64,000 bases of DNA from assembly GCF_001857965.1 (NCBI RefSeq), contig NZ_CP017774.1, positions 2,170,001-2,234,000 of the forward strand, read 5' to 3'. The notes under the pieces were generated by a model. That model was not told the DNA's origin. It did no database searches and was given only the letters and a program-made list of their open reading frames with translations. Below are positions 1-28,060 of this stretch, one piece after another; within the stretch, counting starts at the first letter, position 1, and each line of letters begins with the position of its first letter. This DNA is from Flavobacterium commune. Its GTDB lineage: Bacteria; Bacteroidota; Bacteroidia; Flavobacteriales; Flavobacteriaceae. Made by a program: the position numbers and the translations under genes.

Positions 1-383
1 TAGTCGGACCGGTGTTAGACTGGCTGGAAGAAATTAATATAAACAACTTACCGAGCGATGCACATTTATTTACCAACTTAGGTTCTTATTTTGTGTGGAC
101 GGCCACCGAAAAATCTAAAGTTGACCATTTTGGAAACCGTTTTGCCAAGGTAAAAGAGAAGCTTAAATTTAACGGTGATTATGGTATTTACAGTTTCAGG
201 CATACGGCAGCAATGGACTTGTTTCACGCCTTTATGAAACAAGGAATGACGGAACATGAAAGTATTTTAAAACTGATGCCGATTACCGGACACGCCAGCG
301 AAACAGCATTAAGAAATTATCTTAGAGATATTGGCGGGATGCTGCCAAAAGACTACGGAGAGGATTATACGTTAGAATTTTAG
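1..383 (+). CDS. Tyrosine recombinase (integrase), C-terminal part
   Basis: The reading frame is open from the window edge (frame starts at base 3), so the N-terminal arm-binding and core domains are missing. The visible part holds the catalytic core: YSFRHTA matches the HxxR box (with Tyr at the His position), GHAS matches the conserved GH of box II, and RNYLRDIG supplies the nucleophilic Tyr. The enzyme would integrate and excise the element at the tRNA-Leu site. It points into the element, as expected for an integrase next to its attachment site. Confidence 0.9.
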   Translation, partial: VGPVLDWLEEININNLPSDAHLFTNLGSYFVWTATEKSKVDHFGNRFAKVKEKLKFNGDYGIYSFRHTAAMDLFHAFMKQGMTEHESILKLMPITGHASETALRNYLRDIGGMLPKDYGEDYTLEF

Positions 384-403
384 CCTTTACTGTAATAATT
401 TTA

Positions 404-718
404 ATGATTTTCGTAATACAAATGATAACAAGCGATACATTATCACAAATAGAATCCCTTTTTAGAACTTTACAAATGTTGAGTTGCCCCAGTGTTCAAA
501 TTTATGACGAAAGGCAGGAATACCGATGTTATTGTTTATGGGCTAAAGGTTGGAATTGGAAAAGAGAATCATCTTCAGTACACATCAATTTCCCAAAAGA
601 AAAAGTAAACGCCTGGCTTTTGAAAAATTGGGAGAAACGAAAAACCAAAATTCCGCACGAATCTTTTATGATTGAGTTTCCAAATGAAGAAATTGTACGT
701 TTTGGCTTCAAGGTATAA
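404..718 (+). CDS. Hypothetical protein, 104 aa
   Basis: I do not recognise a family. The gene follows the integrase by 20 bases on the same strand and ends at an intrinsic terminator, so it is probably co-transcribed with it. A second Met at codon 7 (position 422) is an equally good start. The C-terminal half alternates charged and aromatic residues (WNWKRESSSVHINFP), suggesting a small soluble alpha/beta protein. No membrane segment or signal peptide is visible. Confidence 0.55.
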   Translation: MIFVIQMITSDTLSQIESLFRTLQMLSCPSVQIYDERQEYRCYCLWAKGWNWKRESSSVHINFPKEKVNAWLLKNWEKRKTKIPHESFMIEFPNEEIVRFGFKV

Positions 719-719
719 A

Positions 720-748
720 AAAACCGCCTACAGATAGCAAGCGGTTTT
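720..748 (+). terminator. Hairpin terminator after the integrase unit
   Basis: A perfect 8-bp stem AAAACCGC/GCGGTTTT lies directly behind the stop codon at 718. The loop contains an inner CTA/TAG pair. Confidence 0.65.
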
Positions 749-825
749 CAAGTGGTATTCTTAGGAATGAACTTATTTTCATCAAATATACAAAACTTAT
801 GAGAAAAGCCAATCAAATATGCCTA

Positions 826-996
826 CTACTTTTTTTTTACAGCCGTTTTCTTTTTAGCAGCCACTTTCTTTTTAACTGGTTTTTTTGCTGATGCGACTTT
901 GACTACTCCACCGCCTTTTACGTATTTGTAACCTTTTTTTAAATGTGTTCCACAAGCTGTTGTTGCTTCTTTCTTCGATACTTTTTTTGTTGCCAT
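826..996 (-). CDS. Lysine-rich basic protein, 56 aa
   Basis: Reading back from the ATG at 994-996 gives a 56-residue protein that starts MATKKVSKKEATTACG and ends VKKKVAAKKKTAVKKK. About 20 residues are Lys, with Ala, Val and Gly making up most of the rest and almost no acidic residues. The C-terminal K/A/P tail resembles histone H1-like tails, so a DNA-binding or DNA-condensing role is possible. It is the last gene of the late-type operon. The start is supported by a copy of the CACCATTAAACC motif nine bases upstream. Function is inferred from composition only. Confidence 0.7.
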   Translation of the reverse strand: MATKKVSKKEATTACGTHLKKGYKYVKGGGVVKVASAKKPVKKKVAAKKKTAVKKK

Positions 997-1005
997 GATA
1001 ATTTT

Positions 1006-1017
1006 GGTTTAATGGTG
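1006..1017 (-). promoter_or_regulatory. CACCATTAAACC leader motif, copy 1
   Basis: Exact 12-base copy on the minus strand, 9 bases before the start codon of the lysine-rich protein. Confidence 0.8.
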
Positions 1018-1029
1018 ATTAATTGGTGA

Positions 1030-1278
1030 TTATAGTTGACTTCTTAATTTCTCAACTACTTTTATTTCTGTTTTAATTTTAGAAATTCTAATTGCTGTAA
1101 TTGGTTCGCCATGTAAATAAGCATATTTCATACCTCCGGAAGCTCCTTTCTTTTGGTAATTTAATAGATCTTTTAAATGCGAACTAAGTTCGTTGAATGT
1201 TTTCGTTAAAAATGTTTTTTTAGCTGCTGTTGTTTTTTTAGTGGCTAATTCTGATTTATAATATTCAAATGCGTTCAT
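1030..1278 (-). CDS. Hypothetical protein, 82 aa
   Basis: No family recognised. The protein is basic and largely helical by composition (MNAFEYYKSELATKK...), with a central GASGGMKYAYLHG turn region. It sits in the terminal cluster of the late-type operon between the lysine-rich protein and a 63-aa protein, and starts 7 bases after a leader motif copy, which supports it as a real gene. Confidence 0.65.
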   Translation of the reverse strand: MNAFEYYKSELATKKTTAAKKTFLTKTFNELSSHLKDLLNYQKKGASGGMKYAYLHGEPITAIRISKIKTEIKVVEKLRSQL

Positions 1279-1285
1279 AACGGTT

Positions 1286-1297
1286 GGTTTAATGGTG
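1286..1297 (-). promoter_or_regulatory. CACCATTAAACC leader motif, copy 2
   Basis: Exact minus-strand copy, 7 bases before the start at 1278. Flanking bases ATTAATCACC are shared with copy 1. Confidence 0.8.
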
Positions 1298-1302
1298 ATT
1301 AA

Positions 1303-1494: not shown

Positions 1495-1506
1495 TTTTGT
1501 CCTTTT

Positions 1507-4500
1507 TTAAATTCTCTCTACTTCTTCAAATTGCAAATCTTCTTCCTCTTCTTCGGGTTGAACTAATTTTGCGGTGGCAATGTTATAATGCAGTTCGTCT
1601 AACGAACGATTTTGATAACGGTTTTTGTCGGCATAAACATAGTTGTCTTTGAAATCAGGAAATTTTTCTACAAACAGAATTACATCGCCATCAAATTGAC
1701 TGGATGAACCTCCACGCATTTTGCCGTCTGTAGTCAACTGGTAAATAATAACAAACAGTTTGCCGTCATATTTTTTCCTGAAAGTTTCATCTAAGGAAAT
1801 TTTATTGTCCATTGATAACAATTTGCTAAAACTATCAATTACAATTACGTCATTGCGTAGAATTAAATCTTTAATATCCTGCATCGAATTAATTTCAGGG
1901 CTATCAATAGTAGCCTTTGCATTTTCATTCCAAAAACGTTCTGCTTTGTCTTCATACAAAGCACTCTCAGGATGTTCTTCTATGGAAGCGTGACCTACTT
2001 TATAATGCTTTGAAAAGGCGTTCATTAATTGAAAGACAAAGCTTGTTTTTCCGCTTCCTTGTCCTCCGGCAATCGTAATGGCTACACTTTCTTTTTTCTT
2101 TTTTTCGATTTTACCTAAAAAAGTGGCAATATCAGGATTTTCAATCGTGTAGTATTCATGTACGGTATTGCTTCGGTTTTGTTTGCGGTACGCTAACGAA
2201 TTTCGATTTAAAGGAGTAATTACCCTTTCTTCTTCAGGGTCTTCAATTTCTTCCATAGGGACATGAACGATAGTCTGTTGAACGGCCGGAACTTGTGCCG
2301 GAACTTCCTGATAAATGGTTTCGATTTCGGTAACATCGGGAGCATTCAAAGAACCAAATAGAGCTACCTGACCGTTTTTATCAACTTTTTGTTGGTTTTC
2401 TTTTGCTTTTAAACTGTCTATTGTGGCTTCGTCCGTCCAAATTTCGGTATTTCCTGAAATTAGTAAATATTTCATCGAGGAAGCTGCCGTACTCATGTTA
2501 ACCGAGTTGCCCACTTCATAAATTACACCGTCCCAATTGACAACCGTACCGTTTGGATATTTGGCTGCTGTTTTGGTGTTTTTTTTGTCTTTATCCGTGT
2601 TATTTTTGGTCTTTTCTTGATCTTTAGCTTCATTTGCTGAAACCTCTAAAAACTTAAATAAATCCTCTCTATTTAATCGATAATAAGTGTTTAGCTGTCT
2701 TTGCCATGCCCCATTATTAGGTGACCATTTAAAAGCCTGACCGCTTTTCTTTAAAAAAGAACGTGTTTTTTCATCAGGTTTGTTGTCAAATAATACTTGG
2801 ATTTTGTTAAGCTCGTAGTTATCTAATACCTTACCATTTTTAAATGAATATTCTTTGTTTCCTGTTTGGCTTTTACGTTGGTTTAGTTTTTCTTCTAATG
2901 CAATTTGGTCTTTAATTCTTTTAACCTTTGCGTTGGAATTGGCAGTATGAAATCCAGCATAGGTATATTTCATAAAATAATCTGCTTCTTTTTTGGCTAC
3001 TTCTTCATTGAAACCAATTGCTATAAGTCCGTCCACTAGGTCTTTGGTTGTTGCTTTTGGATTAGAACGTATTTTTTTTAGGAGCTTGTTTCCTTCTAGG
3101 TTTTTCTTATGGTTTTTTTCAGCTTCTTTTAGCTTTTCCTGTAAAATTTCCAAAGTTCCTTTTGCTCCTGTTTTAATTGGTTTTTCGGCTTCAGGTGTAA
3201 TGCTGGCTAAAAGCCTTTTTTGCCCTATTTTACCATATTCAACAAGTTCGTTAAGTTTGTCGTTGGCTATACGGTTTTTCTTTTCCATTCGAGCGACTGG
3301 GAATCTTGCAGAACCAGCAATCATTGAGGAAAAGATACCGTGTTTTGAGCGTAAGTAGTCTAGGGAACGTTTTAAATATCCCTCTTTGAACTTCAAAAAA
3401 TTAGTTTCAAAGATTTCTAATTTGTCCGAAGCTTTGGCTTTTTTATGATTTTCGTCATAAACCGATTTCAAAAAATCAAAATAGCCATTTTGTTCTGAGA
3501 CAGCTCTTTTTTCGGGTGTAAACGAAATACCAGTATAAGCCCTGTATGCAACATCATAAGGAATTTCTTCTTTAAAAAAAGGATAGTTTTCTTCTTTTTC
3601 TACAGCTTTTTTAATTTCTTTTTTATCGGTTTTTTTTGCCTCTTTTTTCAAAAACTTAAAAATACCGTCGCTATCCGGTTGTAGAATAAAATCGGCTGCT
3701 TTTTGTGCTGCTGAACTGGCGCGCATTAAGAAACGATTGTCTTTTTTTAGTTGTGGAACAAGCACTTCATTCCAGCCTTTTAAATAGCCAGCATGATTTT
3801 TATTGGTGTAAAACATAATTCCCGCCTGTGCTGATAAAAACACGGCTCCAAATTCGGCAGTTAGTTCCTCGAATGCGTATTCAGGCGAACCAAACGCACC
3901 CGAAAAATCACGCTTCAAACGGTTTTCGTGTCCTGTGCTATGGCTGAGTTCGTGAAATAGTGTTCTGTAAAAATCCTGTGAACTTTTGAATTTATCAATA
4001 GGCGGCATACTAACCAAATCCTTACTTGGAGCAAAGAAAGCTTTGTTTCCTTTGTACTCAATTTTAGGGTTTGGTTTTGGATAATGCGTAACTATTTTTT
4101 CGGCAATATCTATGGTTTGATTGTTGCCTGCTTTTACATCGTTTGTGACTTTTCCAAGTAACTTAAAGTTATCTAAATCAAAATCGATTCCCTCAATATC
4201 AGAAGCACTAAAAACGTTATAATACTTTAAGAAGAAAAATTCTTTCTTGTCTCCTTTTTTGGCTGTTTCGCTTCCTGCTGCCTTATTAATTCTTTCAATT
4301 TCGGCATCACTGTATTCTTTTTCAGTTCTTGAAAAGTAAACAACCTCCTGTCCTTTACTGCCTTTTTTTAACTTACCGCCTTTTTCTTTTATTTGCGTAA
4401 AAGTTAAAAAATAGGGGTTATCCAGTGTACCAAATAAAGGGGTTAACATCATGCTGTTAATTCCTCTGTATGGTTTTTTTGAAACAAAATTGTACGGAAT

Positions 4501-5064
4501 TAAATAGCCTTCGTCATTCCAAGCTCTTTCATAATCGCCTTTATTGGCTTTTTCAATTAAATCCAGCATTCGCTTAGTAACCATATCATAAATAGCATCG
4601 GGAGAAACTGCCTTACCCAAACCATAAATTTGTTCGTGGTTTTCGGTTTCCATATCGATACCGTGCAGCATTCCGTTAAAATCTTCGGGATTAGGGCAGC
4701 CAAGACCTACCACTCTCGCAGCTTTTCTAATTTGGTAGCGTTCTTTGCTTGGGATTCCTTTTTTATGCCAGGTTATTACTCCATGCTTATTGATGCTGGC
4801 TACTTTCACGTTGTCCTGCATATAATGCAGTTCTTCACCTTTTTTTTTAGGAACAACGGGAACGCTTAAACCCCTAGTCTCACGAGCAGGGGTATCTATT
4901 TCTATTTCGAATTTTTTATCGTCCGGGTAGTTGGCTAAAAACTTCGAAACTCGTTCGTAAACTTCTTTATGATTTTCGGCTTTGGCTTTGGCTTGCAATT
5001 CGATTAAGTATTCACGAGTTACAGTAGTGCCTGCCAATCCATTGAATTGTTTGGTAACTGACAT
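1507..5064 (-). CDS. ArdC-like zincin protease fused to RadA/RecA-like ATPase, 1185 aa
   Basis: Residues about 155-290 resemble the ArdC ssDNA-binding domain. Residues 371-375 are HELSH, followed by ELTAEFGA near residue 404, the zinc-protease signature of the ArdC-associated zincin domain. Long Lys-rich linkers follow, with a segment QAFKWSPNNGAWQRQL common in plasmid polyproteins. The last 190 residues are a P-loop ATPase: GGQGSGKT at 1000-1007, Walker B VIVIDS near 1073, QLTTDGK near 1110 and KNRY at 1147, the pattern of RadA/KaiC-type RecA folds. ArdC proteins guard incoming DNA in plasmids; a DNA protection or recombination role is likely. It shows none of the A32/HerA hallmarks of a packaging ATPase. 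Confidence 0.75.
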   Translation of the reverse strand: MSVTKQFNGLAGTTVTREYLIELQAKAKAENHKEVYERVSKFLANYPDDKKFEIEIDTPARETRGLSVPVVPKKKGEELHYMQDNVKVASINKHGVITWHKKGIPSKERYQIRKAARVVGLGCPNPEDFNGMLHGIDMETENHEQIYGLGKAVSPDAIYDMVTKRMLDLIEKANKGDYERAWNDEGYLIPYNFVSKKPYRGINSMMLTPLFGTLDNPYFLTFTQIKEKGGKLKKGSKGQEVVYFSRTEKEYSDAEIERINKAAGSETAKKGDKKEFFFLKYYNVFSASDIEGIDFDLDNFKLLGKVTNDVKAGNNQTIDIAEKIVTHYPKPNPKIEYKGNKAFFAPSKDLVSMPPIDKFKSSQDFYRTLFHELSHSTGHENRLKRDFSGAFGSPEYAFEELTAEFGAVFLSAQAGIMFYTNKNHAGYLKGWNEVLVPQLKKDNRFLMRASSAAQKAADFILQPDSDGIFKFLKKEAKKTDKKEIKKAVEKEENYPFFKEEIPYDVAYRAYTGISFTPEKRAVSEQNGYFDFLKSVYDENHKKAKASDKLEIFETNFLKFKEGYLKRSLDYLRSKHGIFSSMIAGSARFPVARMEKKNRIANDKLNELVEYGKIGQKRLLASITPEAEKPIKTGAKGTLEILQEKLKEAEKNHKKNLEGNKLLKKIRSNPKATTKDLVDGLIAIGFNEEVAKKEADYFMKYTYAGFHTANSNAKVKRIKDQIALEEKLNQRKSQTGNKEYSFKNGKVLDNYELNKIQVLFDNKPDEKTRSFLKKSGQAFKWSPNNGAWQRQLNTYYRLNREDLFKFLEVSANEAKDQEKTKNNTDKDKKNTKTAAKYPNGTVVNWDGVIYEVGNSVNMSTAASSMKYLLISGNTEIWTDEATIDSLKAKENQQKVDKNGQVALFGSLNAPDVTEIETIYQEVPAQVPAVQQTIVHVPMEEIEDPEEERVITPLNRNSLAYRKQNRSNTVHEYYTIENPDIATFLGKIEKKKKESVAITIAGGQGSGKTSFVFQLMNAFSKHYKVGHASIEEHPESALYEDKAERFWNENAKATIDSPEINSMQDIKDLILRNDVIVIDSFSKLLSMDNKISLDETFRKKYDGKLFVIIYQLTTDGKMRGGSSSQFDGDVILFVEKFPDFKDNYVYADKNRYQNRSLDELHYNIATAKLVQPEEEEEDLQFEEVERI

Positions 5065-5087: not shown

Positions 5088-5579
5088 TTATTGCTTTACA
5101 ATCCAGCTTTTTCCCAAGGCATCTACAACGGTATGAATTTGGTAATTATTTACATTGGTGTCTAGTCCGCCTGTTAAAAACTGCTGAACCACATTTACCA
5201 ACGACAATTGCACCGTAATTCCCTCAATAACATAGTTAGAATAGGCTGGTAACTCGAATTTGTTTTCGCCTTCTCCTTTTGGTAAAGCATTGCCTATAAG
5301 AACTCCCTTGTACAGCAACTGTATTTGTTTTACGGTTATCAATCCCGCACTATAAATAGTCATATCGAACTTGGTAGGATTGTGAAAGGCAATATCCAAG
5401 TCTAATAATACCCGGGCTTGCGGTGTGCCAAAATCACGAAGTCTCAAATTGCGCAAATTGCGCAAATCCATTGTCATGTTTTCAATGACTTTTGAAAATT
5501 CATTTTTTTTCTTAAAAGCAAAAAGTGTGCTTACAACTGCTGCACCGCCTAACCATGCTAAAATAGTTTTTCCCTCCAT
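5088..5579 (-). CDS. Membrane-anchored LEA type 2-like protein, 163 aa
   Basis: An N-terminal hydrophobic segment (about residues 5-21, ending FAFKKK) anchors a beta-rich domain. The stretch LDLDIAFHNPTKFDMTIYSA followed by a YKGVLIGNALP turn fits the water-stress/LEA type 2 fold (NPt/NPn motif, small fibronectin-like sandwich). It stops 23 bases before the next leader motif region and follows the peptidoglycan-binding protein by 4 bases. One of a series of single-span membrane proteins in this operon; a role in the virion membrane is inference. Confidence 0.65.
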   Translation of the reverse strand: MEGKTILAWLGGAAVVSTLFAFKKKNEFSKVIENMTMDLRNLRNLRLRDFGTPQARVLLDLDIAFHNPTKFDMTIYSAGLITVKQIQLLYKGVLIGNALPKGEGENKFELPAYSNYVIEGITVQLSLVNVVQQFLTGGLDTNVNNYQIHTVVDALGKSWIVKQ

Positions 5580-5583: not shown

Positions 5584-6198
5584 TTAAATTTTTTCTACAT
5601 CCGAAGCCTTTACAAAGCCTTTTCTTAGAGCGTTAAACATTCCATAATAATAAATCAGATAGTAACCGCTGGCGTTCATAGTCGATTTTATTAAGCCTAC
5701 TTTTTCGCCATAGTCAAAGGTGCTTACTACATTTCCGCTGGAGTAGTAACTTCCATCGGCTTTAGCAACAGCTCCATATACTTTGACTCCTTGCGGATTT
5801 TTTGCCTGAATATTAGTATTTAACGGTAGAACAGGAACAATTATTAATGTAGGCAATGTAGGGTATTGCGCTAGTGTAACTTGTTTTACTCCTTTGGTAG
5901 TAAGTAGTTTTTTTTCGGTTATTGGCCCAAAAATACCGTCCACCTCGCTACCACTCATTCCCATTAAAAGCTGTAGTTTACCCACTTCTAAACCTCTTGA
6001 ACCAAGAGAAAGAACTTTGTTTAAATCGGGTTTAGCTGCTGCCGGAGTAGAGGATGGAGTATCGGTAGTTAAATCGTCTGTTGGTTCGGTATTACTGTTA
6101 CCGTTCATAGCGTATAAGCCTACACCTGCCAGTAATGCAATGCCGAGATACAAATACGTATTATCCCCTTTTTTTGGGGTTGTGGTGGTTGTTTTCAT
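5584..6198 (-). CDS. Membrane-anchored peptidoglycan-binding protein, 204 aa
   Basis: Residues about 14-31 (YLYLGIALLAGVGLYAM) form one membrane segment after a short basic N-terminus. A Thr/Ala/Pro linker leads to LGSRGLEVGKLQLLM...VDGIFGPITEK, the pattern of the PG_binding_1 domain. The C-terminal 80 residues look like an SH3-type beta module (GVKVYGAV...YGEKVGLI). It probably tethers a membrane to the cell wall, as an entry or lysis component. Its start is preceded by a leader motif 9 bases upstream. Confidence 0.75.
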   Translation of the reverse strand: MKTTTTTPKKGDNTYLYLGIALLAGVGLYAMNGNSNTEPTDDLTTDTPSSTPAAAKPDLNKVLSLGSRGLEVGKLQLLMGMSGSEVDGIFGPITEKKLLTTKGVKQVTLAQYPTLPTLIIVPVLPLNTNIQAKNPQGVKVYGAVAKADGSYYSSGNVVSTFDYGEKVGLIKSTMNASGYYLIYYYGMFNALRKGFVKASDVEKI

Positions 6199-6229: not shown

Positions 6230-6763
6230 TCAGACTTTTGGTTTGATAAAAGTAATAAATTTTAGCAATAAATAACCTATTGTTACTGCTCCAATTTGCA
6301 TTAAAATTATTTGCCATTTAGGAAGAGGTTTATCTACCGGGATTTCTTTAGTTTTATAAAGCGTTACTGTTTTGGTAATGCGGTAATACACTTTATAAAT
6401 TTTATTCTCAGTAGCTCCAATTTTGCTGTTAAAATTCAGGCTTTTGTCTTTCGAATTGTAATTGACGTTATACGAATTGGCTCCCGATTTTTTAGAGGTG
6501 TTCAATTGGCTTAATAATTTATCAATTGCAATTTGACAAACGGAATCGCACTCTTTTTTTTCGGTTTTGATACTGCCAATGATGATCTTCAAACTGTCCA
6601 CAATTGCCTGATTGCGAATAGTAAATTTCACTAAATTGATGCTGTCATGGTTAACGATGGTGGTTTCTTTAACTTCGTTAATCGGTTGGGTAGTTTTGCA
6701 GCTAAATAACATCAGCAGCAAAATCAATATTGCGAAAAGATTTAAAAGGAAATACTTTTTCAT
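6230..6763 (-). CDS. Probable single-gene spanin (u-spanin-like), 177 aa
   Basis: The protein begins MKKYFLLNLFAILILLL and has a lipobox LFSC with Cys at residue 22, so it should become an outer-membrane lipoprotein. A single C-terminal span (WQIILMQIGAVTIGYLLL) near residues 150-170 would anchor the other end in the inner membrane. A lipoprotein signal plus a C-terminal span is the architecture of u-spanins, which fuse the two membranes at lysis. The start at 6763 is chosen because it overlaps the upstream stop as ATGA and gives a clean signal peptide; an ATG ten codons earlier exists. It lies next to a holin-like gene. Confidence 0.7.
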   Translation of the reverse strand: MKKYFLLNLFAILILLLMLFSCKTTQPINEVKETTIVNHDSINLVKFTIRNQAIVDSLKIIIGSIKTEKKECDSVCQIAIDKLLSQLNTSKKSGANSYNVNYNSKDKSLNFNSKIGATENKIYKVYYRITKTVTLYKTKEIPVDKPLPKWQIILMQIGAVTIGYLLLKFITFIKPKV

Positions 6764-6954
6764 GGCTTGCGGTTTTTTTTGTTCGTTTTCCATTCGTCGT
6801 GCATGATGTACCAGCGTTGCAATTGGTAGCCTACGTAAATGATGAAACCTATTAATTTAAAAGCAAAGTCTATGTTTATGGTACTAAATAGGGCTATCAT
6901 AATGGAGAATATGGCGGTTGATTTAATTTCTATAATTTCGGCTAGTAGTTTCAT
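6760..6954 (-). CDS. Holin-like small membrane protein, 64 aa
   Basis: Two hydrophobic segments (about residues 11-28 and 30-46) and a charged tail HDEWKTNKKNRKP fit a class II holin-like protein. It overlaps the spanin start by ATGA and the upstream gene by one base, so the three form a tightly coupled lysis block. No specific holin family is recognised. Confidence 0.6.
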   Translation of the reverse strand: MKLLAEIIEIKSTAIFSIMIALFSTINIDFAFKLIGFIIYVGYQLQRWYIMHDEWKTNKKNRKP

Positions 6955-7511
6955 TATGGCATAGGGTTAAGGTTAGACAATGTTTGTTTGAAGTTGAAAT
7001 AGGTAAACAAAAAATAAATAAATATTCCTGCTGTTTTTATGGTAGCTTCTGTTTTTGGTTCTAATCCAAATCCTGCTATTATGCTAAAATTTTCATTTAG
7101 CAAGGCTATTAATCCATAGAAAAATGTACCTATTTTCCATAGTAAGGTGTTTCTTTTAGGTGTAGGTTGGTTTAGTTTTCCCATAATGCTAATGTCTATT
7201 GAATTGATACTGTGGTTTTCGTCTATTGTGTCTAGTAGTTCTACTAAAAATTTACCTCTTTTGGTTAGTGTGCCTTTGAGTTGGTTTTTTCCCAAGGCAC
7301 TCGAAATGGTTTCTCCCGGAACGCCAAACGCATAACCGTCTTCTGTAATTAATACTTTGTTCCAAAATGCCCTAAACTCCCTGTTTGCAAAAACATCTAT
7401 ATTTTTTGCTGTGTCTCTGAAATAACCTTTTGTTTTTTCCACATAAAACAGATTCACAAACGTTAATGGGAATAAAAGGATATATGCGATTATGAATAGA
7501 AAAAAGCCCAT
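6954..7511 (-). CDS. Phage-type membrane protein of the lysis block, 185 aa
   Basis: One N-terminal span (FFLFIIAYILLFPLTFVNLFY), a soluble middle with ETISSALGKNQLKGTLTKRGKFLVELLD and ENHSINSI, and two weaker hydrophobic stretches near the C-terminus. The TISSxLGKNQ..GTL..GK..V..LD pattern recurs, as I remember it, in small proteins beside lysis genes of Bacteroidota phages. The exact role is unknown. It shares one base with the holin-like gene downstream and directly abuts the gene upstream. Confidence 0.65.
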   Translation of the reverse strand: MGFFLFIIAYILLFPLTFVNLFYVEKTKGYFRDTAKNIDVFANREFRAFWNKVLITEDGYAFGVPGETISSALGKNQLKGTLTKRGKFLVELLDTIDENHSINSIDISIMGKLNQPTPKRNTLLWKIGTFFYGLIALLNENFSIIAGFGLEPKTEATIKTAGIFIYFLFTYFNFKQTLSNLNPMP

Positions 7512-8004: not shown

Positions 8005-10368
8005 TTAAGTTAACCAATTAGTACCGTCATAAGTAACCATACATTTTTCAGAACCACCACCTGTAACAATCCCTCTATAAGTAGGTGTCAAAGCATCAGT
8101 AACAAAAGCTACCATTCCAGAAACAGGTGTAGCAGGTAAATTAGCAACTGTAGTGTTTTTTAATACTACATAAGCTGCTCTAAATCCGCCATTAGAGTCT
8201 ATCGAAGCAATTAAAGGACTTGTTTGAGGATTAGTTGTTCCTTTTCTAAATTCTAAATAATTGGCAGTAGCATTAGAATTTTGAAGATTATAAATTATAA
8301 AAGGTTTAGAATGTCCTGAAGTACCAGCAAACATAACAGCACCAGCTATAACTGAAGCGTCATTTTGTACATTTGTCTGAATACCTATACCTCCGTAAAC
8401 TTCTAACGCCAACCATTTATGTGCGTTTTGAAAATTTACAGCATAAATAGCTGCATTAGCATAACCCGAAGAAGTGTCATAATTTTGTATGACGAACCTT
8501 CCATTTGTGCCCGTTGAAGACCTGGTTAAATTCACATTACCAGTATGTGTTTTAGTCCCTGAAATTGTTTGATTTGTCGATAAAGTGACAACATCATTTA
8601 CAGTTAAATTATCCCCATAAACCGCCCATGTATCAGTTCCAACTTTTTCCAAAAAGAAAGTTTTACCTGTAGAAAAAATTAAATTTATATTTATAAAAGT
8701 AACACCAGCCCCTTGAACAGTCACAGTACCACTACCTTGCACCGTAAATGATTTTTTAGTACCTATAGCAATTGCTACGGTAGCATCAGTAGGAACGTTT
8801 AAAGCAATTGGATTAGTTGCTGTAAAAACGGTTTTCTTTTTTATATCGGCAATAGATAAGGTATAGTTTACTGATGCTGTGGTTTCAATATCGAGAATCC
8901 ATGTTTTGTATAAGTTGTCGAAAAACGTTTTTAAATTCGTTTTAATCGTTGAAAATTTCCAAAACTTGGTTTTGTTACTGTCTTCACTATCAGCATTACC
9001 TATTTTATCATCGTCATGGATAGTCAATTTCTCTTCGGCTGTAGCGATTAAATTACCTAAATCAACCACCTTACCCACAAACTCCAAAGTCCCACCGTTG
9101 TAATCCGTCATTATCGCTTTGAAATGGATAATTTCTTTAGGTTGTATTTCTAAGTCTTCTTCATTTGGGAATAAGAAAACGTATCTTTCCTGCTCAATTA
9201 CTCCCGAATTGTGTTTGATAATAAAAGGCGTTGCCTGATCGTTTTTGATGTAAAAATCCTGTCCGTAAAAATATTTAGGGATCAGGTTCGAATTATGTAA
9301 AGAGTGTAATTCGGTAACTGTTCCTATAAAAGTAAATCCACTACCTTCTTTAGTCGAAATATCTAAATCGGTAATTACTCCAGTTGTATCAATTGGATTA
9401 AAATGGAAAGAATCTTTACGGACAAAATAACTGGTATCTATAGTATTGTTCGAACTTACAACATGAACAGATTTAGCAATCAAAACTACATTATCAATCA
9501 AAGAAGCACCTGTAAAACGAGCTGGTTTTATAGGAGTGATTTCGATGCTGTTAAAATCATTGCTGGTAAATGCAAAACGGTTAAAATCGACTAAAACGGT
9601 CTCATAAACCGCAGGATTTTTAAAAAAAGGATAATCAATACCCGATGTTATGGTTTCGGAACTGGAAACTACCGTGTCATTCAATAAAAACTTAAAAGTA
9701 AATCCTGAGTAGCCTGAGCCTTGGTAATTTTGCAATAGCTTTAAGCGTAAAGCATCAAATTGAGAGGCATCGTGAATGTTTACAGTATCTTTGAATTTAA
9801 TGATACTAACAAGTCTTATTGCTTTAGTTCCTTCAAATGGTTCTCCTGTATGGTTAAAATTAGTTCCCGCACTTGTTGCAGTTGTTTGCCACTCAACATT
9901 TTGTTTGTACACCACCACATCAGCAACCGGAGTAGGGTTTGGGTCGGCTTCCGGTTCTACGGTGTTGGCTTTAACGTCTCTTGTGGTTATAAAAATTTCG
10001 TTAGCCGTGTCAACAGTAGGTGCAATGGGTTCGGCTGCCGGATTTCCTGCAATAGCAAAAGCACCTGAAGCATTTAAACCAAAGGTGTCTGTTCTGTCTA
10101 AGGTAGCGTGTGAGCCTTCAAGTGTTATTTTTTTAGAACCTGCCGGGAATGCCTGACCGTTGATATAGTATAACGGATAGGTTACTTCGTACTCATAACC
10201 TATGCGAGTCCACACTACAAAGATTTTTCCCGGTGCTCCTGTTTTAATTCCCTGGGCGTTTTCTACAGCTGTAAGGCGTTGCTCTAAATCAACGTTGTTT
10301 TCGTTTACAATTGTAGTGCTTCCGTTAGGTTTTACAACACCTATAGTTATGTTTTGTTTTCCGCTCAT
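8005..10368 (-). CDS. Fibre/spike-like receptor-binding protein, 787 aa
   Basis: The N-terminus is a short extended region with a coiled stretch (NNVDLEQRLTAVENAQG), followed by several hundred residues of Thr/Asn/Gly-rich beta-type sequence. The C-terminus contains LPATPVSGMVAFVTDALTPT and a GGGSEKCMVTYDGTNWLT ending, a pattern typical of fibre tips in phages of Bacteroidota. Its ATG overlaps the stop of the membrane extension of the lysozyme gene as ATGA. It most likely binds the host surface. No hydrolase motif is visible. Confidence 0.75.
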   Translation of the reverse strand: MSGKQNITIGVVKPNGSTTIVNENNVDLEQRLTAVENAQGIKTGAPGKIFVVWTRIGYEYEVTYPLYYINGQAFPAGSKKITLEGSHATLDRTDTFGLNASGAFAIAGNPAAEPIAPTVDTANEIFITTRDVKANTVEPEADPNPTPVADVVVYKQNVEWQTTATSAGTNFNHTGEPFEGTKAIRLVSIIKFKDTVNIHDASQFDALRLKLLQNYQGSGYSGFTFKFLLNDTVVSSSETITSGIDYPFFKNPAVYETVLVDFNRFAFTSNDFNSIEITPIKPARFTGASLIDNVVLIAKSVHVVSSNNTIDTSYFVRKDSFHFNPIDTTGVITDLDISTKEGSGFTFIGTVTELHSLHNSNLIPKYFYGQDFYIKNDQATPFIIKHNSGVIEQERYVFLFPNEEDLEIQPKEIIHFKAIMTDYNGGTLEFVGKVVDLGNLIATAEEKLTIHDDDKIGNADSEDSNKTKFWKFSTIKTNLKTFFDNLYKTWILDIETTASVNYTLSIADIKKKTVFTATNPIALNVPTDATVAIAIGTKKSFTVQGSGTVTVQGAGVTFININLIFSTGKTFFLEKVGTDTWAVYGDNLTVNDVVTLSTNQTISGTKTHTGNVNLTRSSTGTNGRFVIQNYDTSSGYANAAIYAVNFQNAHKWLALEVYGGIGIQTNVQNDASVIAGAVMFAGTSGHSKPFIIYNLQNSNATANYLEFRKGTTNPQTSPLIASIDSNGGFRAAYVVLKNTTVANLPATPVSGMVAFVTDALTPTYRGIVTGGGSEKCMVTYDGTNWLT

Positions 10369-10457
10369 CGATTGTGTTCTTTATATTTTTTGTATCCTAA
10401 ATAAGCTGCAATTCCTATCAATATTAAGCCACCTGTCCCGATGGCAATGCGTTTTTT
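10365..10457 (-). other. Out-of-frame membrane anchor of the GH108 enzyme
   Basis: In the -1 frame relative to the lysozyme gene, codons from the A6 run encode KKRIAIGTGGLILIGIAAYL followed by GYKKYKEHNR and a TGA at 10365-10367. There is no ATG, GTG or upstream TTG start suited to independent translation. The A6 run reads A AAA AAC in the lysozyme frame, a classic -1 slip heptamer. Slippage would give a 206-aa enzyme with a C-terminal span. The TGA overlaps the next ATG by four bases, which suggests the frame is used. A one-base sequencing or mutational indel is the main alternative. Confidence 0.6.
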
Positions 10458-10984
10458 GAGAATGAAAAGCTTTTTAATCGGTTAAGCCACCCGCCTAAAA
10501 ATTCGCCTCCAAGGCTATAGTAATAACTTGCTCTTGCGGTTTTGATTTTTGTAAAAAGGGATTGCTGGTTAACCGAGTTAATGGCTCGGGCGGTTACGGG
10601 TCCAATATCACCATCGACTACAATGTTTTTATTGAAATCATTTTTCAAAATACGTTGTACGATGGTACCTATAGGACTTTCGCCTGAATTGACAGCATGA
10701 TCTGCAATTAAGTTGGCTACTGATTGATTTGTAAGTGAATCCCCTTGTACGTCGTCCCAAAAGTATTTTTTGTACAAAGCTTCGGCTTTAGATTTAGTAA
10801 TAGCTTTCATATCAGCTACTGTAGGCGGTCTCCCGATAATATCCTCATAAAAACGAGCCGAAATACCGTGATTTGTTCCTACTCTTTGACCTAATGAGTT
10901 ATAATTGCCATTGTCTCCGGACAGGTTTTGATAACCGCCCTCTATTTTTTGAAGTATTGGAATAAAAAGTTTGAAGTTTGCCAT
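10424..10984 (-). CDS. GH108-family muralytic enzyme (endolysin-like), 186 aa
   Basis: The start MANFKLFIPILQKIEGGYQN carries the EGGY signature of glycoside hydrolase family 108, with E15 the expected catalytic acid. GDIGPVTARAINSV near residue 125-140 fits the C-terminal peptidoglycan-binding PG_binding_3 domain. In the zero frame the protein ends FSKNALPSGQVA. It would cut peptidoglycan at entry or lysis. See the separate entry on a -1 frame membrane tail. It lies between the fibre gene and the carboxypeptidase-regulatory-like membrane protein. Confidence 0.88.
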   Translation of the reverse strand: MANFKLFIPILQKIEGGYQNLSGDNGNYNSLGQRVGTNHGISARFYEDIIGRPPTVADMKAITKSKAEALYKKYFWDDVQGDSLTNQSVANLIADHAVNSGESPIGTIVQRILKNDFNKNIVVDGDIGPVTARAINSVNQQSLFTKIKTARASYYYSLGGEFLGGWLNRLKSFSFSKNALPSGQVA

Positions 10985-11543: not shown

Positions 11544-11792
11544 TTAATCGATACTTTCTTCTTTTTTGTTTTCTGCCATCAGTAAAGCGGTTACGGCTAC
11601 AGCTGCCCAAATCCATAACACCGATTTCTTTTTAGGAGCGGTTGGCGTTGCAGCGGTTGGTGTTGTTGCGCTTGCCGTTTCACCAACAGGAGGTGTATAA
11701 AATTCTTCGTAAATCCTTTCTTTAACTGCGGTTTTAGCAGTCAGGCTGTTTTCGGTTTCGTAAAATGAAACACAGTTGTTGTCTAGTGCCAT
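11544..11792 (-). CDS. Small tail-anchored membrane protein, 82 aa
   Basis: A soluble N-terminus is followed by a Thr/Ala/Pro-rich linker (SATTPTAATPTAP) and a single span VLWIWAAVAVTALLMA after a KKK stretch, ending in an acidic tail. It sits 16 bases from the next gene in the series of membrane proteins. No family recognised. Confidence 0.65.
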   Translation of the reverse strand: MALDNNCVSFYETENSLTAKTAVKERIYEEFYTPPVGETASATTPTAATPTAPKKKSVLWIWAAVAVTALLMAENKKEESID

Positions 11793-12226: not shown

Positions 12227-12239
12227 AGCCTTGTTTTTT

Positions 12240-13725: not shown

Positions 13726-13745
13726 AATTATTGCGTGATTTGAGT

Positions 13746-17305: not shown

Positions 17306-17470
17306 ACTTATTCCGTTTTGCTGTTTTGGATTAGTTAGCAAGAAAGGTGTTGTGATTTTGTACTTTTGAAATACTACACACACGCTACCTTATTCTTGCT
17401 TAATTAACTAACTCAAAACAAATCCTATGAAATGAATGTCAAAGGTTGTGGAGTTTGTTTTTTTACTCGT

Positions 17471-17560
17471 TGGATTCTGTAGGATTGGGTTAGATTCGGT
17501 TAGATTTTGTAAGTTGTTGTATCATTTTGTAAGATTCGGTCGGATTTTGTCGGATTTTGG
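17471..17560. repeat. Nine phased 10-bp direct repeats
   Basis: Nine back-to-back decamers with plus-strand consensus nnGATTYKGT run without gaps: for example TGGATTCTGT, TAGATTCGGT, CGGATTTTGT. Units 5 and 6 are the most diverged. The 10-bp period places each unit on the same DNA face. The array ends one base before the -33 element of the promoter for the gene at 17617 and lies 165 bases upstream of the late operon start. It could bind a multimeric regulator or act as iterons. Confidence 0.85.
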
Positions 17561-17561
17561 T

Positions 17562-17593
17562 TTGTGAAAATTGCAAGTATTTGACTATTTTTG
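17562..17593 (+). promoter_or_regulatory. Bacteroidota-type promoter for 17617 gene
   Basis: TTG at 17562-17564 and TATTTTTG at 17586-17593 match the -33/-7 consensus TTG / TAnnTTTG with 21-bp spacing. Transcription should start near 17600, inside the leader motif copy. Confidence 0.65.
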
Positions 17594-17597
17594 AAAA

Positions 17598-17608
17598 ACC
17601 ATTAAACC
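17598..17608 (+). promoter_or_regulatory. Leader motif on the plus strand, copy 12
   Basis: ACCATTAAACC (first base of the 12-mer is A instead of C) lies 8 bases before the ATG at 17617. It shows that the motif follows gene orientation rather than one strand. Confidence 0.75.
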
Positions 17609-17616
17609 ACCGTTCT

Positions 17617-17829
17617 ATGACTGCTAAAAAACTGTTGCAACCGAAAAGAAAAGCCGAATTACAAAATTTATTACAAGGTTTTGGACGTGAAACCGTAAGA
17701 AAAGAAGTTATTAGTGTTGTAATGGAACTCCGAAAAGTTCCACTTAAGGAGGCGCAGAACATTAAAACTATTTTTCCTGCCGAAGTAAAAGAGATTTTGA
17801 ACCGCTTTGATTATGAGATTGAAGCGTAA
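17617..17829 (+). CDS. Small hypothetical protein, 70 aa
   Basis: The ATG at 17617 is chosen because it follows a good promoter and a leader motif copy. The protein (MTAKKLLQPKRKAELQNLLQ...) is basic and helical, with a possible helix-turn-helix around GFGRETVRKEVISVVMELRK. It is divergent from the late operon and next to the phased repeats, so a regulatory role is conceivable. No family recognised. Confidence 0.65.
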   Translation: MTAKKLLQPKRKAELQNLLQGFGRETVRKEVISVVMELRKVPLKEAQNIKTIFPAEVKEILNRFDYEIEA

Positions 17830-22181: not shown

Positions 22182-23927
22182 TTAACATTCGTGTTTAGTG
22201 ACTGAAACTTTCAATAGCGTATCAGACAATTTTTGTAAATAATTAGATGGTAAATTGGTGTTTACGTAGTCGATTAATTCGTTTAATTCGATTCGGTTTT
22301 TGAAAAACTGGTTAATTTTTATGTCGAATTTTTTCGAATGATTGATGTTTTGTTTTCTAATTGTAGATTTTTTAGTGACTGATTGGGCTAATTTTGGCTT
22401 GTTTTCGATGTATTTTAGGTGGTTTTTCCACGCTTTTTTAGTGTATTCGAAGCCAATTTCCTGTTTTTCGGTACGGCTAAAGTCAAAGTAATCAGACGGA
22501 AACAAAGGATTAATTTTAGTTTTTAAGAACCATTTGTGCGCATTATTCACACGCCAAATCATTTCGTCCAGTTTGTCAACCATTAATTGTTTGTTGAATA
22601 AGAAAGGTTCGCCACCGTTATTGACAATAAATTGCTTTTCGGCATAGGCATTAATCGCTTTTTTCCAGCAACCTATGTACACACGTTTACCGCGATAGAG
22701 TTTAGAAGCATTTTTGAAAAATTCCTGTAGAATAAATGTTTTAAAATCGGCACGGCTCATAGTTCCGTACATGGATTCCTGATACAAATATCTCTTATCT
22801 ACTCTTTTATGATTATGAAATGCGCCGCTTGCCAGCTTTTCGGCAAAATCCTGATCGTTCAGGATGGCAGCTTCCATCTTTTCGGATAAAGTTTTTGAAA
22901 CTTTAACATTTTCGCCGCCCCCCCCTTGTTTGGATTTCTCATCTTGCTCAGGGATGTTCTTGTAAAAAACAAATGAAAAACCAGCCGTAGGCGTTCCTTT
23001 CTCAAGAAAATCGGCTTGACCGTTTTCTATTTTCTTAATATTACTTTTAAAAGCTCTTGTAACCTCATTATTATCTGTAAGTTTCTTATTCGTTCGGGAG
23101 GTAAACGCCTGATTTTCAGTATCGGTTAATTTTTGGGTTTTGGCATCAAAAACCACTAAAATTTGGCTTGAAATATTCATTTTAAGCCCTGTTTTATGAC
23201 CTCTAAAAAGATAGTCAACAAATACCCCAGCTTCTTCTAATCGTTCTCTGTGTGCTCTTACAGTGGTGTTGGTTACATTGATTGAAAATGCACCGTTACG
23301 CTTTAAATTGGTAACGTGGTGGGCGTTAATCTCCAATTGACGTACTGGCGAAGCTTCCGAAATGCCTAACTTGATGTATTCGGTAGTAGTTTTTTGAAGT
23401 TGTAACGAATACAGATAAACGATTTGTTGAAATACAATTTCGCTGGCGTATTTTACGGTATGGAATTTCTTTTTTTCGATAATCATTCCACGATCAGTAT
23501 TAAATTCTTCTACCAGTAAATTGTATTCTTTGGTTTTGGCGTTGCGATGTTGTTTTAAAAACAATCCGGAGAATGTTTTTTGAACCTCATTAAGTGTGTT
23601 TTGGCTGGTGAAAGTGCGAACGGCTGCATTGTACTTTTCGGTTTCTTCGTTTAATGCTTTAATCATAGTGTTATAGTGCGCAATGTATAATCGGTAATTA
23701 TCCATTGTGGCTGCAAACGCTGTGGTATCAATAAACGGATGCACGGCTGTAACTGGTGTACAGTTTTCTATCAGTTCGGGAAAAGTGAGTTTTTCCAAAC
23801 GTGTAGCGGGCTTGTTTTTTGGTTTTGCTGTTGGTTTCACGCTAACGGGAGTGTTAGCGTGATTGCCAAATATATTGCCTGAAAACAGCGAGCCTAAAGA
23901 CTGGGCTTGGTGGGTGCGTTTTTGCAT
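22182..23927 (-). CDS. Large winged-helix protein, possible replication initiator, 581 aa
   Basis: The N-terminus is basic and Pro-rich. Around residues 205-245, HVTNLKRNGAFSINVTNTTV followed by RAHRERLEEAGVFVDYL looks like a helix-turn-helix with wing. A Gln/Gly-rich break (KQGGGGENVK) separates a C-terminal half with many aromatic and basic residues. It is the largest gene of the early operon. Bacteroidota plasmids and phages often have an initiator of this size and layout, but no catalytic or ATPase motif is visible, so the replication role is inference. Confidence 0.55.
   Translation of the reverse strand: MQKRTHQAQSLGSLFSGNIFGNHANTPVSVKPTAKPKNKPATRLEKLTFPELIENCTPVTAVHPFIDTTAFAATMDNYRLYIAHYNTMIKALNEETEKYNAAVRTFTSQNTLNEVQKTFSGLFLKQHRNAKTKEYNLLVEEFNTDRGMIIEKKKFHTVKYASEIVFQQIVYLYSLQLQKTTTEYIKLGISEASPVRQLEINAHHVTNLKRNGAFSINVTNTTVRAHRERLEEAGVFVDYLFRGHKTGLKMNISSQILVVFDAKTQKLTDTENQAFTSRTNKKLTDNNEVTRAFKSNIKKIENGQADFLEKGTPTAGFSFVFYKNIPEQDEKSKQGGGGENVKVSKTLSEKMEAAILNDQDFAEKLASGAFHNHKRVDKRYLYQESMYGTMSRADFKTFILQEFFKNASKLYRGKRVYIGCWKKAINAYAEKQFIVNNGGEPFLFNKQLMVDKLDEMIWRVNNAHKWFLKTKINPLFPSDYFDFSRTEKQEIGFEYTKKAWKNHLKYIENKPKLAQSVTKKSTIRKQNINHSKKFDIKINQFFKNRIELNELIDYVNTNLPSNYLQKLSDTLLKVSVTKHEC
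23838..23861. repeat. Perfect 9-bp inverted repeat within the winged-helix gene
   Basis: CACGCTAAC / GTTAGCGTG with a 6-base spacer lies in the first 90 bases of the 581-aa gene. It may be a self-binding site (initiator or operator). The half-site TTAGCG also occurs in the ACGT cluster at 20.37 kb. Confidence 0.5.
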
Positions 23928-26413: not shown

Positions 26414-26476
26414 TTTGTTGTTTTTTAAATTCGTTTTGTGTAATTTTCTTGAACAAACTTACTACAAAAAAATGAA

Positions 26477-26508: not shown

Positions 26509-26565
26509 TAAAATGAATTAATTTTCAATCGCTTGGTTTTCAATGGTTTGCAAAACAATAATTTT

Positions 26566-26955
26566 ATGATTAAAAACTATATTCCTGAAAATATTTTGTT
26601 TCTCGTAAAAAAAATGAATCTTTCCCAAGATGATTTTGGAGCGACTTTTGAAATTGGAAGAGGATTAATAAGCAATTATATTAATGGAAAGGCTTTGCCT
26701 AAAATTGAAGCTATTCAAAAAATCTGTTTACATTTTGAAATTTTAATTGATGATTTCATAAATACTGATTTATCGGAAGCAAAACCTTATGGTATTCAAG
26801 GAGGTAAATTGTTAACTTCGAATGAAAAAAATCCAGAACCTTATGTAATAAGTCCTAAATATGTAGAATTGCTTGAAAAAGCAGTTGAGGATAAAGATAA
26901 AATCATTAAGTCTCTTGAAGAAAAATTAGGAATCGATAAAAGCAAAACTGCATAA
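26566..26955 (+). CDS. XRE-family repressor, 129 aa
   Basis: The start MIKNYIPENILFLVKKMNLS leads into a helix-turn-helix (SQDDFGATFEIGRGLISNYI, residues about 20-40) of the lambda-repressor fold. The C-terminus is a coiled helix (VEDKDKIIKSLEEKLG) likely used for dimerisation. No LexA-type self-cleavage domain is present, so induction must use another route. It faces the early operon across paired palindromic operators and is the probable lysogeny repressor. Confidence 0.85.
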   Translation: MIKNYIPENILFLVKKMNLSQDDFGATFEIGRGLISNYINGKALPKIEAIQKICLHFEILIDDFINTDLSEAKPYGIQGGKLLTSNEKNPEPYVISPKYVELLEKAVEDKDKIIKSLEEKLGIDKSKTA

Positions 26956-27034
26956 TCGCCCCGGATTGATGCAGATAGCCTACAAAAAAAAACAGGATTT
27001 TTAAATTTGAACGAAAATATTGCCTAATGGTTTT

Positions 27035-27063
27035 TTGAAAATAACGGCAAAAGTGTATTTTCG
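27035..27063 (+). promoter_or_regulatory. Promoter of the inner Bor-like gene
   Basis: TTG at 27035-27037 and TATTTTCG at 27056-27063, with 18-bp spacing. The -7 region and the bases after it resemble the promoter of the outer copy at 28.19 kb. Confidence 0.6.
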
Positions 27064-27096
27064 TACTAATTATAAACAATTAATAAATCTTATAAA

Positions 27097-27390
27097 ATGA
27101 AAAAAATGTTTACACGTTTTGCAGTTGCTTTTGGTGCTGCTGTTATGTTGACTTCTTGCTATTCTTACACTAGTGTTGTAGGTACAGGAGCAAAAGGAAA
27201 CAGTCAAACTACAAAATGGAATCATTATTTAATTGGTGGTCTTGCACCGGTTGGCGTTTCAGATTCTAAAGCTATGGCATCAGGAGCAGAGGACTATACT
27301 GTACACACAAGACAAACATTTGTAAACGGTTTGGTTTCGTGGATCACTTTTGGGCTTTATGCTCCATCAACGACAACGGTTACAAAGTAA
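27097..27390 (+). CDS. Bor-family lipoprotein, inner copy, 97 aa
   Basis: The signal peptide MKKMFTRFAVAFGAAVMLTS ends at a lipobox Cys (TSCYSYT). The mature part WNHYLIGGLAPVGVSDSKAM and AEDYTVHTRQTFVNGLVSWI then TFGLYAP follow the phage lambda Bor pattern (HHFFVSGI..., GAEN...QQTFVNALLGFITLGIYTP). Lambda Bor is expressed by lysogens and affects serum resistance in E. coli. It lies inside the element next to the right attachment scar, a typical place for lysogenic conversion genes. A closely similar gene lies just outside. Confidence 0.85.
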   Translation: MKKMFTRFAVAFGAAVMLTSCYSYTSVVGTGAKGNSQTTKWNHYLIGGLAPVGVSDSKAMASGAEDYTVHTRQTFVNGLVSWITFGLYAPSTTTVTK

Positions 27391-27397
27391 TAAATTT

Positions 27398-27426
27398 AAA
27401 AGCTTGTTTCCGGACAAGCTTTTTTT
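27398..27426 (+). terminator. Terminator of the inner Bor-like gene
   Basis: Perfect 10-bp stem AAAAGCTTGT/ACAAGCTTTT with loop TTCCGG and a T-run. Confidence 0.8.
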
Positions 27427-27440
27427 AAGATTTATAAGAT

Positions 27441-27869
27441 ATGAAAAAAATAATTTTATTAGGTTTATTATTAGTTGGTTTTGGTTGTTTTGCGCAAAAT
27501 GAAACAACTGAAAAAGAGTATAATTACTTAACCAAAGGTTTGAAGATTCAAAAAGAAAGCGGTTTAGATGTTATTGCTGGATATGAGTTTAAGAATGAAG
27601 AAATGTTATTTATTGATAAAGGATTTGCTTTTACATTTTCTGATTTTATTGAAAAATCTACTGGTAATTTAAAAGGTGTTTCAGTTGTAATAAGTTCGCA
27701 AATTAGTGGTAACACTTATTACGTTTGTATTCCTGTAAACAAATCAGCATATAATTATGTTTATGAAAAAGTAATTGATTCATTTACAATTGATTTGGCA
27801 AAGGCTTACGCTAAAGCACTTTCAATTCGTTATGCAAAAATAGATCAGCAAATAGTTGATAAAATATAA
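27441..27869 (+). CDS. Secreted hypothetical protein, 142 aa
   Basis: A signal peptide (MKKIILLGLLLVGFGCFAQ) cleaves after AQ or, less likely, uses the GCF cysteine as a lipid site. The mature part is a small alpha/beta protein with no recognised family. It is the last gene of the element, co-oriented with the Bor-like gene, and may be a second conversion gene. Confidence 0.6.
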   Translation: MKKIILLGLLLVGFGCFAQNETTEKEYNYLTKGLKIQKESGLDVIAGYEFKNEEMLFIDKGFAFTFSDFIEKSTGNLKGVSVVISSQISGNTYYVCIPVNKSAYNYVYEKVIDSFTIDLAKAYAKALSIRYAKIDQQIVDKI

Positions 27870-27947
27870 TAAAAAATTAATAATTTGCCGAACCCACAAA
27901 CGAGCCTGTTGGTTTGGTTTTCTTGAAATTTTGATAAATGTAAAGGG

Positions 27948-27975
27948 TTGAAAAACAATTGTTTGTGTTTTTCAA
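27948..27975. repeat. Perfect inverted repeat near the attachment site
   Basis: TTGAAAAACA and TGTTTTTCAA flank an 8-base spacer, 27 bases from the tRNA fragment. It could be an integrase or excisionase arm site, or a terminator of the 142-aa gene. Positions 27870-28001 otherwise hold no gene. Confidence 0.5.
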
Positions 27976-28001
27976 ATTGTACAAAACAGGAGTCGGCAAA
28001 A

Positions 28002-28055
28002 CTTAAAATCCAGTGAACAGCAATGTTCGTGCGGGTTCAAGTCCCGCTCTGAGTA
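28002..28055 (+). other. tRNA-Leu(TAA) 3' fragment, probable attR
   Basis: The sequence reads anticodon loop CTTAAAA, anticodon 3' stem TCCAG, long variable arm GAACA-GCAA-TGTTC, T-arm GCGGG-TTCAAGT-CCCGC and acceptor strand TCTGAGT plus A. The 5' half (acceptor, D-arm, CTGGA stem) is absent: the bases before the loop do not pair. This is a tRNA-Leu(TAA) cut in the anticodon loop, the usual footprint of integration. It is followed by a strong terminator, as a tRNA gene would be. Confidence 0.85.
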
Positions 28056-28060
28056 CAAAG

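Follow-up and report, generated by a model that had tools for sequence, protein, structure and literature searches.

The window analysed here, a 64,000-nucleotide stretch of the Flavobacterium commune genome (NZ_CP017774.1, one contig of 3.85 Mb; positions 2170001-2234000), begins inside a provirus. We observed a unit of 29,021 bp bounded by an exact 92-bp repeat, with attL at contig 2168980-2169071, 1,021 bp before the window starts, and attR at 28001..28092 of the window (plus strand), where the repeat comprises the 3' part of tRNA-Leu(taa) and the bases that follow. The chromosome ahead of the window carries tRNA-Gly, tRNA-Leu(taa) and then the full gene of a tyrosine integrase, whose C-terminal part occupies 12..383 (plus strand), as seen from Pfam, PHROGs and the open reading frame (ORF); the complete integrase (L002:9103-10383) matches Pfam Phage_integrase with E 9.5e-12 and phrog_1 with E 5.9e-35. 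These observations demonstrate the integration site and correct a preliminary description of the locus, which had placed the element at 1..28056: the real start lies outside the window, the element is larger, and 28056 is the tRNA 3' end, inside attR.

A compact late operon runs on the minus strand from 17383 to 826, the 22 gaps between its 23 ORFs taken as genes measuring -34 to +84 bp, and this ORF map demonstrates the gene order described before. Among 49 ORFs scanned against PHROGs (48 picked in the window plus the integrase), 30 of which were also scanned against Pfam, there was no match to the terminase large subunit, portal or HK97 capsid by which Caudoviricetes are recognised, nor to a tape measure, sheath or baseplate. 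The lack of tailed-phage genes noted earlier was thus borne out, including for terminase and portal, which the preliminary description had named as the findings that would speak against a tailless virus.

Candidate coat protein and homology to SSIP-1

The operon encodes a candidate major capsid protein of 195 aa (14457..15044), whose predicted fold is one vertical single jelly roll. When the model was compared with the PDB, ranks 1-5 were taken by coat structures of five viruses with internal membranes, which supports the earlier proposal of this gene as a capsid gene and, on the predicted fold, provides the vertical single-jelly-roll major capsid protein characteristic of Helvetiavirae. Double-jelly-roll chains ranked lower (EhV-201 5.7, PRD1 P3 5.0). 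Because the coat candidate has one jelly roll and the double-jelly-roll chains rank lower, a PRD1-like virus, the comparison drawn in the preliminary description, is no longer the first choice and is replaced by the single-jelly-roll lineage. The neighbouring 120-aa protein (14012..14374) had also been proposed as a capsid protein; its model is indeed jelly-roll-like, with eight strands, while its structure matches are non-specific, and it may serve as a penton, as a second coat protein or as cement. The two families have no detectable paralogy (14.0%), and there is one coat-family member per locus (43 members, including the query, in 42 loci; 63 in 62). No credible match came from searching the PDB sequences with profiles.

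The first gene of the operon (15596..17383) encodes a transglutaminase-like protein with a C-terminal hydrophobic segment (span 1.81). The transglutaminase assignment is weak for the window copy (Pfam E 0.018); a relative (L043) is above threshold (DUF553, 28.1 bits versus 20.5). We searched family profiles against the ORFs of Salisaeta icosahedral phage 1 (SSIP-1), P23-77, SH1 and FLiP plus reversed decoys (1,382 sequences), which demonstrated the homology of this family to SSIP-1 gp34, annotated as structural (E 7.4e-17, or 2e-22 with the 62 loci described below; hhalign 98.6%). The ATPase of the element matched gp40, the annotated structural ATPase of SSIP-1 (E 1.4e-11; 3.7e-20 with 62 loci), and the endolysin family matched the SSIP-1 endolysin (E 2.2e-12); in rounds of 21, 16 and 10 profiles, no other family had a credible match in SSIP-1. 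A match of the basic-protein (826) profile to gp40 was dropped, the profile having absorbed fused ATPase ORFs. As controls we used parts of two tailed Bacteroidota phages (26,235 of 42,831 and 25,379 of 33,037 bases) and 34 kb of host flank. Because these controls have no match to the transglutaminase-like family and match the ATPase better than SSIP-1 does (E 6.1e-26, 1.4e-23), we regard the gp34 match as the sole specific evidence of SSIP-1 kinship in these profile searches.

Comparison of the coat family with 697 ORFs (286 reversed) by hhalign, run on ORFs of 100-450 aa, ranked SSIP-1 gp45 (29.6%) and gp46 (20.1%) first and second, the next at 5.1%; a deeper coat profile gave 52.4% and 30.7%, the next among the 8 best matches listed being 4.3%. 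gp45 and gp46 are paralogs of each other (hhalign 97.8%), and we take them to be the probable SSIP-1 coat proteins. Two observations weigh against the coat kinship: adding one homolog to gp46 (a two-sequence profile) lowers its coat match to 3.1%, and the first coat profile reached at most 3.8%. The BFVD entries I1ZBH9 and I1ZBI0 correspond to SSIP-1 gp46 and gp47 by matching lengths only (211 and 256 aa) and were not used as evidence. Scans of IMG/VR for gp46 and gp34 found SSIP-1 itself as sole match.

SSIP-1 has been described as a phage that contains a membrane, has two coat types and shows almost no sequence similarity to GenBank entries (PMC6356626); it is about 100 nm in size, with T=49 and a genome of 44 kb (PMC6260650), and gp40 is its predicted packaging ATPase (PMC4124505). 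The present element resembles it in the structural gp34 homolog and the gp40-related ATPase, and an integrase and an endolysin are annotated in SSIP-1 as well. It differs in that SSIP-1 has 43.8 kb and the paralogs gp45 and gp46, whereas the present elements have one coat-family gene and, in this case, 29 kb.

Relatives in other bacterial genomes

Coat profiles had matches at every level sampled: in the genus 34 of 398 genomes, in a draw from the family 15 of 397, in one from the phylum 8 of 395, and in one from the class 37 of 395, the last spread over 26 of 196 genera; the draws overlap and the element's own genome is counted in each. Such elements are common across the class. In the genus, genome G270 has its coat gene at the coordinates of the F. 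gillisiae locus L004. One genome of the class (G1195) has five coat gene copies on five contigs, three of which were fetched as loci. From the 36 coat places of the genus, 19 were fetched at 20 kb, six were loci already named, one is the window and 10 were left out; the family contributed 12 of 14 other genomes, which with three phylum places makes 15 in all, and the class 20 of 50 places, four of which run into a contig end. To be counted, a family member had to cover more than half of its profile (40% in one earlier round).

In the resulting 62 loci, picked by their coat gene, the conservation of the gene families is demonstrated: the transglutaminase-like protein was found in 61 (by its N-terminal region), a 63-aa protein (12681..12872) in 60 and a 304-aa protein (12859..13773) in 58, both from the virion-gene block, a protein with an N-terminal hydrophobic segment at a kept position (5088..5579; a candidate membrane or virion protein) in 56, the 120-aa protein in 49, a 150-aa, possibly membrane-associated protein (15109..15561; 40 of 42 loci) in 41 and a small 86-aa protein (13746..14006) in 40. 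The ATPase was found in 34; some loci stop short of its gene, and of the 20 most recently added loci, 13 gave no ATPase match. The GH108 endolysin was found in 17. Seven of 10 elements with longer flanks are bounded by exact tRNA 3'-end repeats (Leu, Met, Val; 44-92 bp) and measure 24.4-33.7 kb, so that at least seven elements are whole proviruses with a common gene block. A related integrase is present in eight of the 10; one element (G060) has an integrase and tRNA-Met without such a repeat in the 40 kb taken, and two (G397, G821) have neither integrase nor repeat. In the coat tree, the window element and nine others form one clade with support 100/100.

Three pattern scans of IMG/VR, of limited sensitivity, found no relative, and virus catalogues may therefore miss these elements. 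When 50,697 phage records were searched by single-sequence tblastn, there was no credible match for the 595-aa transglutaminase-like protein, a distant member of its family, the coat or a 581-aa protein of the early arm. In the literature, we found no description of the lineage among the best-ranked titles and abstract openings, a coverage that excludes most subscription papers.

Other genes of the element

The 1185-aa protein (1507..5064, minus strand) matches, in Pfam and PHROGs, an ArdC-N region, a zincin MPTase-PolyVal region, a primase-like region and a C-terminal P-loop ATPase (aa ~946-1185), a candidate packaging motor. The ATPase domain is related to SSIP-1 gp40 (phrog_6891; profile search) and also to ATPases of tailed Mu-like phages; because the latter score better, it was rejected as proof of packaging or of SSIP-1 kinship. 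The P-loop has sub-threshold matches to many folds, including Pox_A32 (0.0044) and KaiC (0.022). A RecA-like class is favoured from these comparisons because SSIP-1 gp40 matches UvsX- and Sak4-like families.

The remaining genes of the operon are likewise on the minus strand. At its end lies a recurrent, small, lysine-rich basic protein of 56 aa (826..996; homologs in 15 of 27 loci), for which a role in DNA condensation is a guess. Lysis may involve the GH108 endolysin with PG_binding_3 (10424..10984; Pfam E 1.7e-18 and 6.2e-11), a protein with an N-terminal hydrophobic segment and weak endolysin similarity (5584..6198; phrog_17214, E 0.0047), a protein with an N-terminal lipobox-like segment and a C-terminal span (6230..6793; two hydrophobic segments, family in 29 of 42 loci), a spanin-like candidate, and two small ORFs with hydrophobic segments (6760-6954 and 6954-7511, together 6760..7511), holin-type candidates by their place. 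The variable 787-aa protein at 8005..10368, without a Pfam or PHROG match and with a homolog in one of 27 loci, is a candidate receptor-binding fibre. The operon also encodes a CarboxypepD_reg-like protein (11069..11527; Pfam E 4.9e-12), an 82-aa protein with a C-terminal hydrophobic segment (11544..11792; Kyte-Doolittle 19-residue score 1.53), an annexin-repeat-like protein with an N-terminal span of 2.01 (11795..12229; Pfam Annexin E 9.5e-6, 26.0 bits with a cut-off of 25) and its paralog with a hydrophobic segment (12240..12680; both profiles recruit nearly the same members). These last two form an adjacent paralog pair (11795-12680) in the virion-gene block, one annexin-matching and both with a hydrophobic segment.

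Directly upstream of the operon, between it and a small divergent gene (17557..17829, plus strand; 90 aa, later start possible, homologs in nine of 27 loci), sits an array of ~10-bp tandem repeats (17473..17559), possibly a control region, origin or packaging site. We scored periods 7-15 in the 400 bases that precede the gene for the transglutaminase-like protein, counting scores reached by 0 of 100 shuffles: 17 of 43 elements, with the 10 members of the close clade all among them, had a best period of exactly 10, and 26 of the 43 failed. The repeat unit varies between elements and is alike within each; SSIP-1 has nothing comparable.

The other arm of the element holds the 581-aa conserved protein (22182..23927, minus strand), small proteins and a plus-strand helix-turn-helix (HTH) repressor candidate (26533..26955; Pfam HTH_3 E 2.7e-7, phrog_8 E 9.1e-10). 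The 581-aa protein, without a convincing match in the Pfam and PHROGs scans and with homologs in 15 of 27 loci, several of these cut by the ends of the fetched stretch, is a candidate replication initiator. A DUF2335 membrane protein (18364-18855, plus strand; phrog_3996, host takeover class) between the late and early blocks is possibly a lysogeny or exclusion gene. A Bor-like lipoprotein (27097..27390, plus strand; Pfam Lambda_Bor E 2.2e-24) is a candidate for lysogenic conversion; a second copy lies just outside attR (28233-28526), with 76 of 97 residues identical.

Proposed nature of the element and its affinities

We believe that the element is a complete temperate double-stranded DNA virus in tRNA-Leu of Flavobacterium, tailless and icosahedral, with a vertical single-jelly-roll coat of 195 aa, very probably an internal membrane, and a relationship to SSIP-1, and we would put the probability of this reading at roughly 80%. 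The tailless, membrane-containing virion proposed in the preliminary description is thus supported by the lack of terminase and portal matches, the coat fold and the gp34 homology, the membrane itself being inferred. The comparisons support the single-jelly-roll lineage (SSIP-1, SH1, P23-77, SPV1), and not PRD1, as the nearest.

Helvetiavirae, single-jelly-roll viruses since transferred to the realm Singelaviria (PMC12714852) and including P23-77, SH1 and HHIV-2, share the coat fold predicted here but are described as having a pair of coat proteins and an ATPase of the FtsK/HerA type (PMC8328091). On P23-77 and SH1 ORFs, none of the family profiles scored above decoys, except the full 595-aa family with one SH1 ORF (E 0.0025), a match absent with its N-terminal profile. 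Sulfolobus polyhedral virus 1 (SPV1, Portogloboviridae), described with jelly-roll hexamers and pentamers and an inner lipid layer (PMC8459092), has been proposed to resemble the state before coat duplication; it differs in its archaeal (Saccharolobus) host, the host here being bacterial, and in being reported without a packaging ATPase (PMC8812541). The profile search of PDB chains gave no sequence relative in SPV1. Known Flavobacterium membrane prophages belong to the phiCjT23 and FLiP types, which have a double jelly roll (PMC9719478, PMC13269007). FLiP (Finnlakeviridae) and the phiCjT23-like prophages are likewise tailless membrane viruses with Flavobacterium hosts, and phiCjT23 is temperate, but they have a double-jelly-roll coat and a small single-stranded DNA genome, the phiCjT23 type integrating by dif/XerCD (PMC9719478), whereas the present element has 29 kb, a tRNA-Leu site in place of dif, and its own integrase. 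A Finnlakevirus-like reading was rejected, the coat profile having no match to FLiP ORFs above decoys; the one family match to FLiP, of the annexin-like family to a structural protein (E 2.8e-4), was dropped because a reversed decoy reached 0.0071.

Some findings count against our reading and favour, at a low probability, a divergent tailed phage, or a satellite of one, in which terminase, portal and HK97 capsid would be too divergent for the scans or come from a helper and the 195- and 120-aa jelly rolls would be cement proteins. KHP30, KHP40 and Pam1 are tailed phages, and cement proteins of KHP40 and Pam1 are matched by the 195-aa model and those of all three by the 120-aa model; KHP30 is tabulated among membrane-containing phages (PMC6356626). 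The ATPase is kin to those of tailed Mu-like phages, and a minor tail protein was among the first viral-library matches. A related element (G102; 42 ORFs called, 37 scanned, 10 of these rescanned singly) has a fibre-like 768-aa protein matching tail-fibre families, which carries all tail-fibre and minor-tail matches except a weaker fibre-family match of the endolysin.

Slightly less probable still is a tailless jelly-roll virus that has no membrane inside its shell, a reading helped by membrane spans that are modest and only partly above shuffles. Seven one-span proteins had been described (5088, 5584, 11069, 11544, 11795, 12240, 15596), and this claim proved too strong: by Kyte-Doolittle in a 19-residue window, two of the seven have a span at >=1.6 (11795, 15596) and six at >=1.3 (not 11069), the latter threshold being unspecific, as some presumed non-membrane proteins (14012, 1.43) and many shuffles pass it. 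Against a membrane-free virion stand the viruses of the five closest coat structures and SSIP-1, described with an internal membrane (SH1 in a family abstract), and hydrophobic segments at fixed places across families. The most hydrophobic segment lies within 10% of the family median position in 90% of 40 members for the 5088 family (shuffles 24%), 93% of 15 for 5584 (27%), 62% of 56 for 11795 (23%) and 71% of 42 for 15596 (23%); the 12859 family, without a span, likewise reaches 70% of 40 members. An internal membrane carrying several single-span proteins is, on this analysis, very probable. A decayed or domesticated provirus unable to spread (e.g. a gene-transfer or delivery particle) is very improbable: transposase families are matched in the G102 element (among the matches listed, 25 of 38 matching families; probably ORF L050 14412-15587 of its early region), but the att repeat is exact, the core genes here are open, and coat copies are intact in many genera, with an internal stop in one of 15 places listed for the family and none listed for genus, phylum and class.

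For the virus that we favour, the cycle is inferred as regards membrane, packaging, replication, repression, lysis by small proteins and activity. The HTH repressor would keep the late operon silent; the tyrosine integrase would excise a circle at the 92-bp att repeat, and the 581-aa protein would start replication. The late operon would then supply the coat protein, a jelly-roll partner possibly closing the five-fold vertices, and membrane-anchored virion proteins (transglutaminase-like, annexin-like), the ATPase domain of the large protein would package the DNA, and the GH108 endolysin with the holin- and spanin-like proteins would lyse the cell.

New here are the plan with a single coat gene and an ATPase that appears to be RecA-like. 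Tentatively, and with somewhat less than even confidence, we suggest a class-wide lineage of at least family rank, consisting of temperate tailless bacterial viruses with one vertical single-jelly-roll hexon gene, a small jelly-roll penton and a RecA-type ATPase, which would be the bacterial counterpart of the one-coat-gene portoglobovirus plan, itself proposed to predate the duplication of the coat gene, SSIP-1 being a relative with a duplicated gene. P23-77, IN93 and SSIP-1 come from extreme environments (PMC6356626); the large clade of proviruses seen here, in Flavobacterium and further genera of its class, provides relatives of SSIP-1 and makes viruses of this kind accessible in ordinary bacteria that can be cultured. 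The clade would also allow a test of the proposal, made from SPV1 (PMC8812541), that duplication in an ancestor with one coat protein gave rise to the two-coat design.

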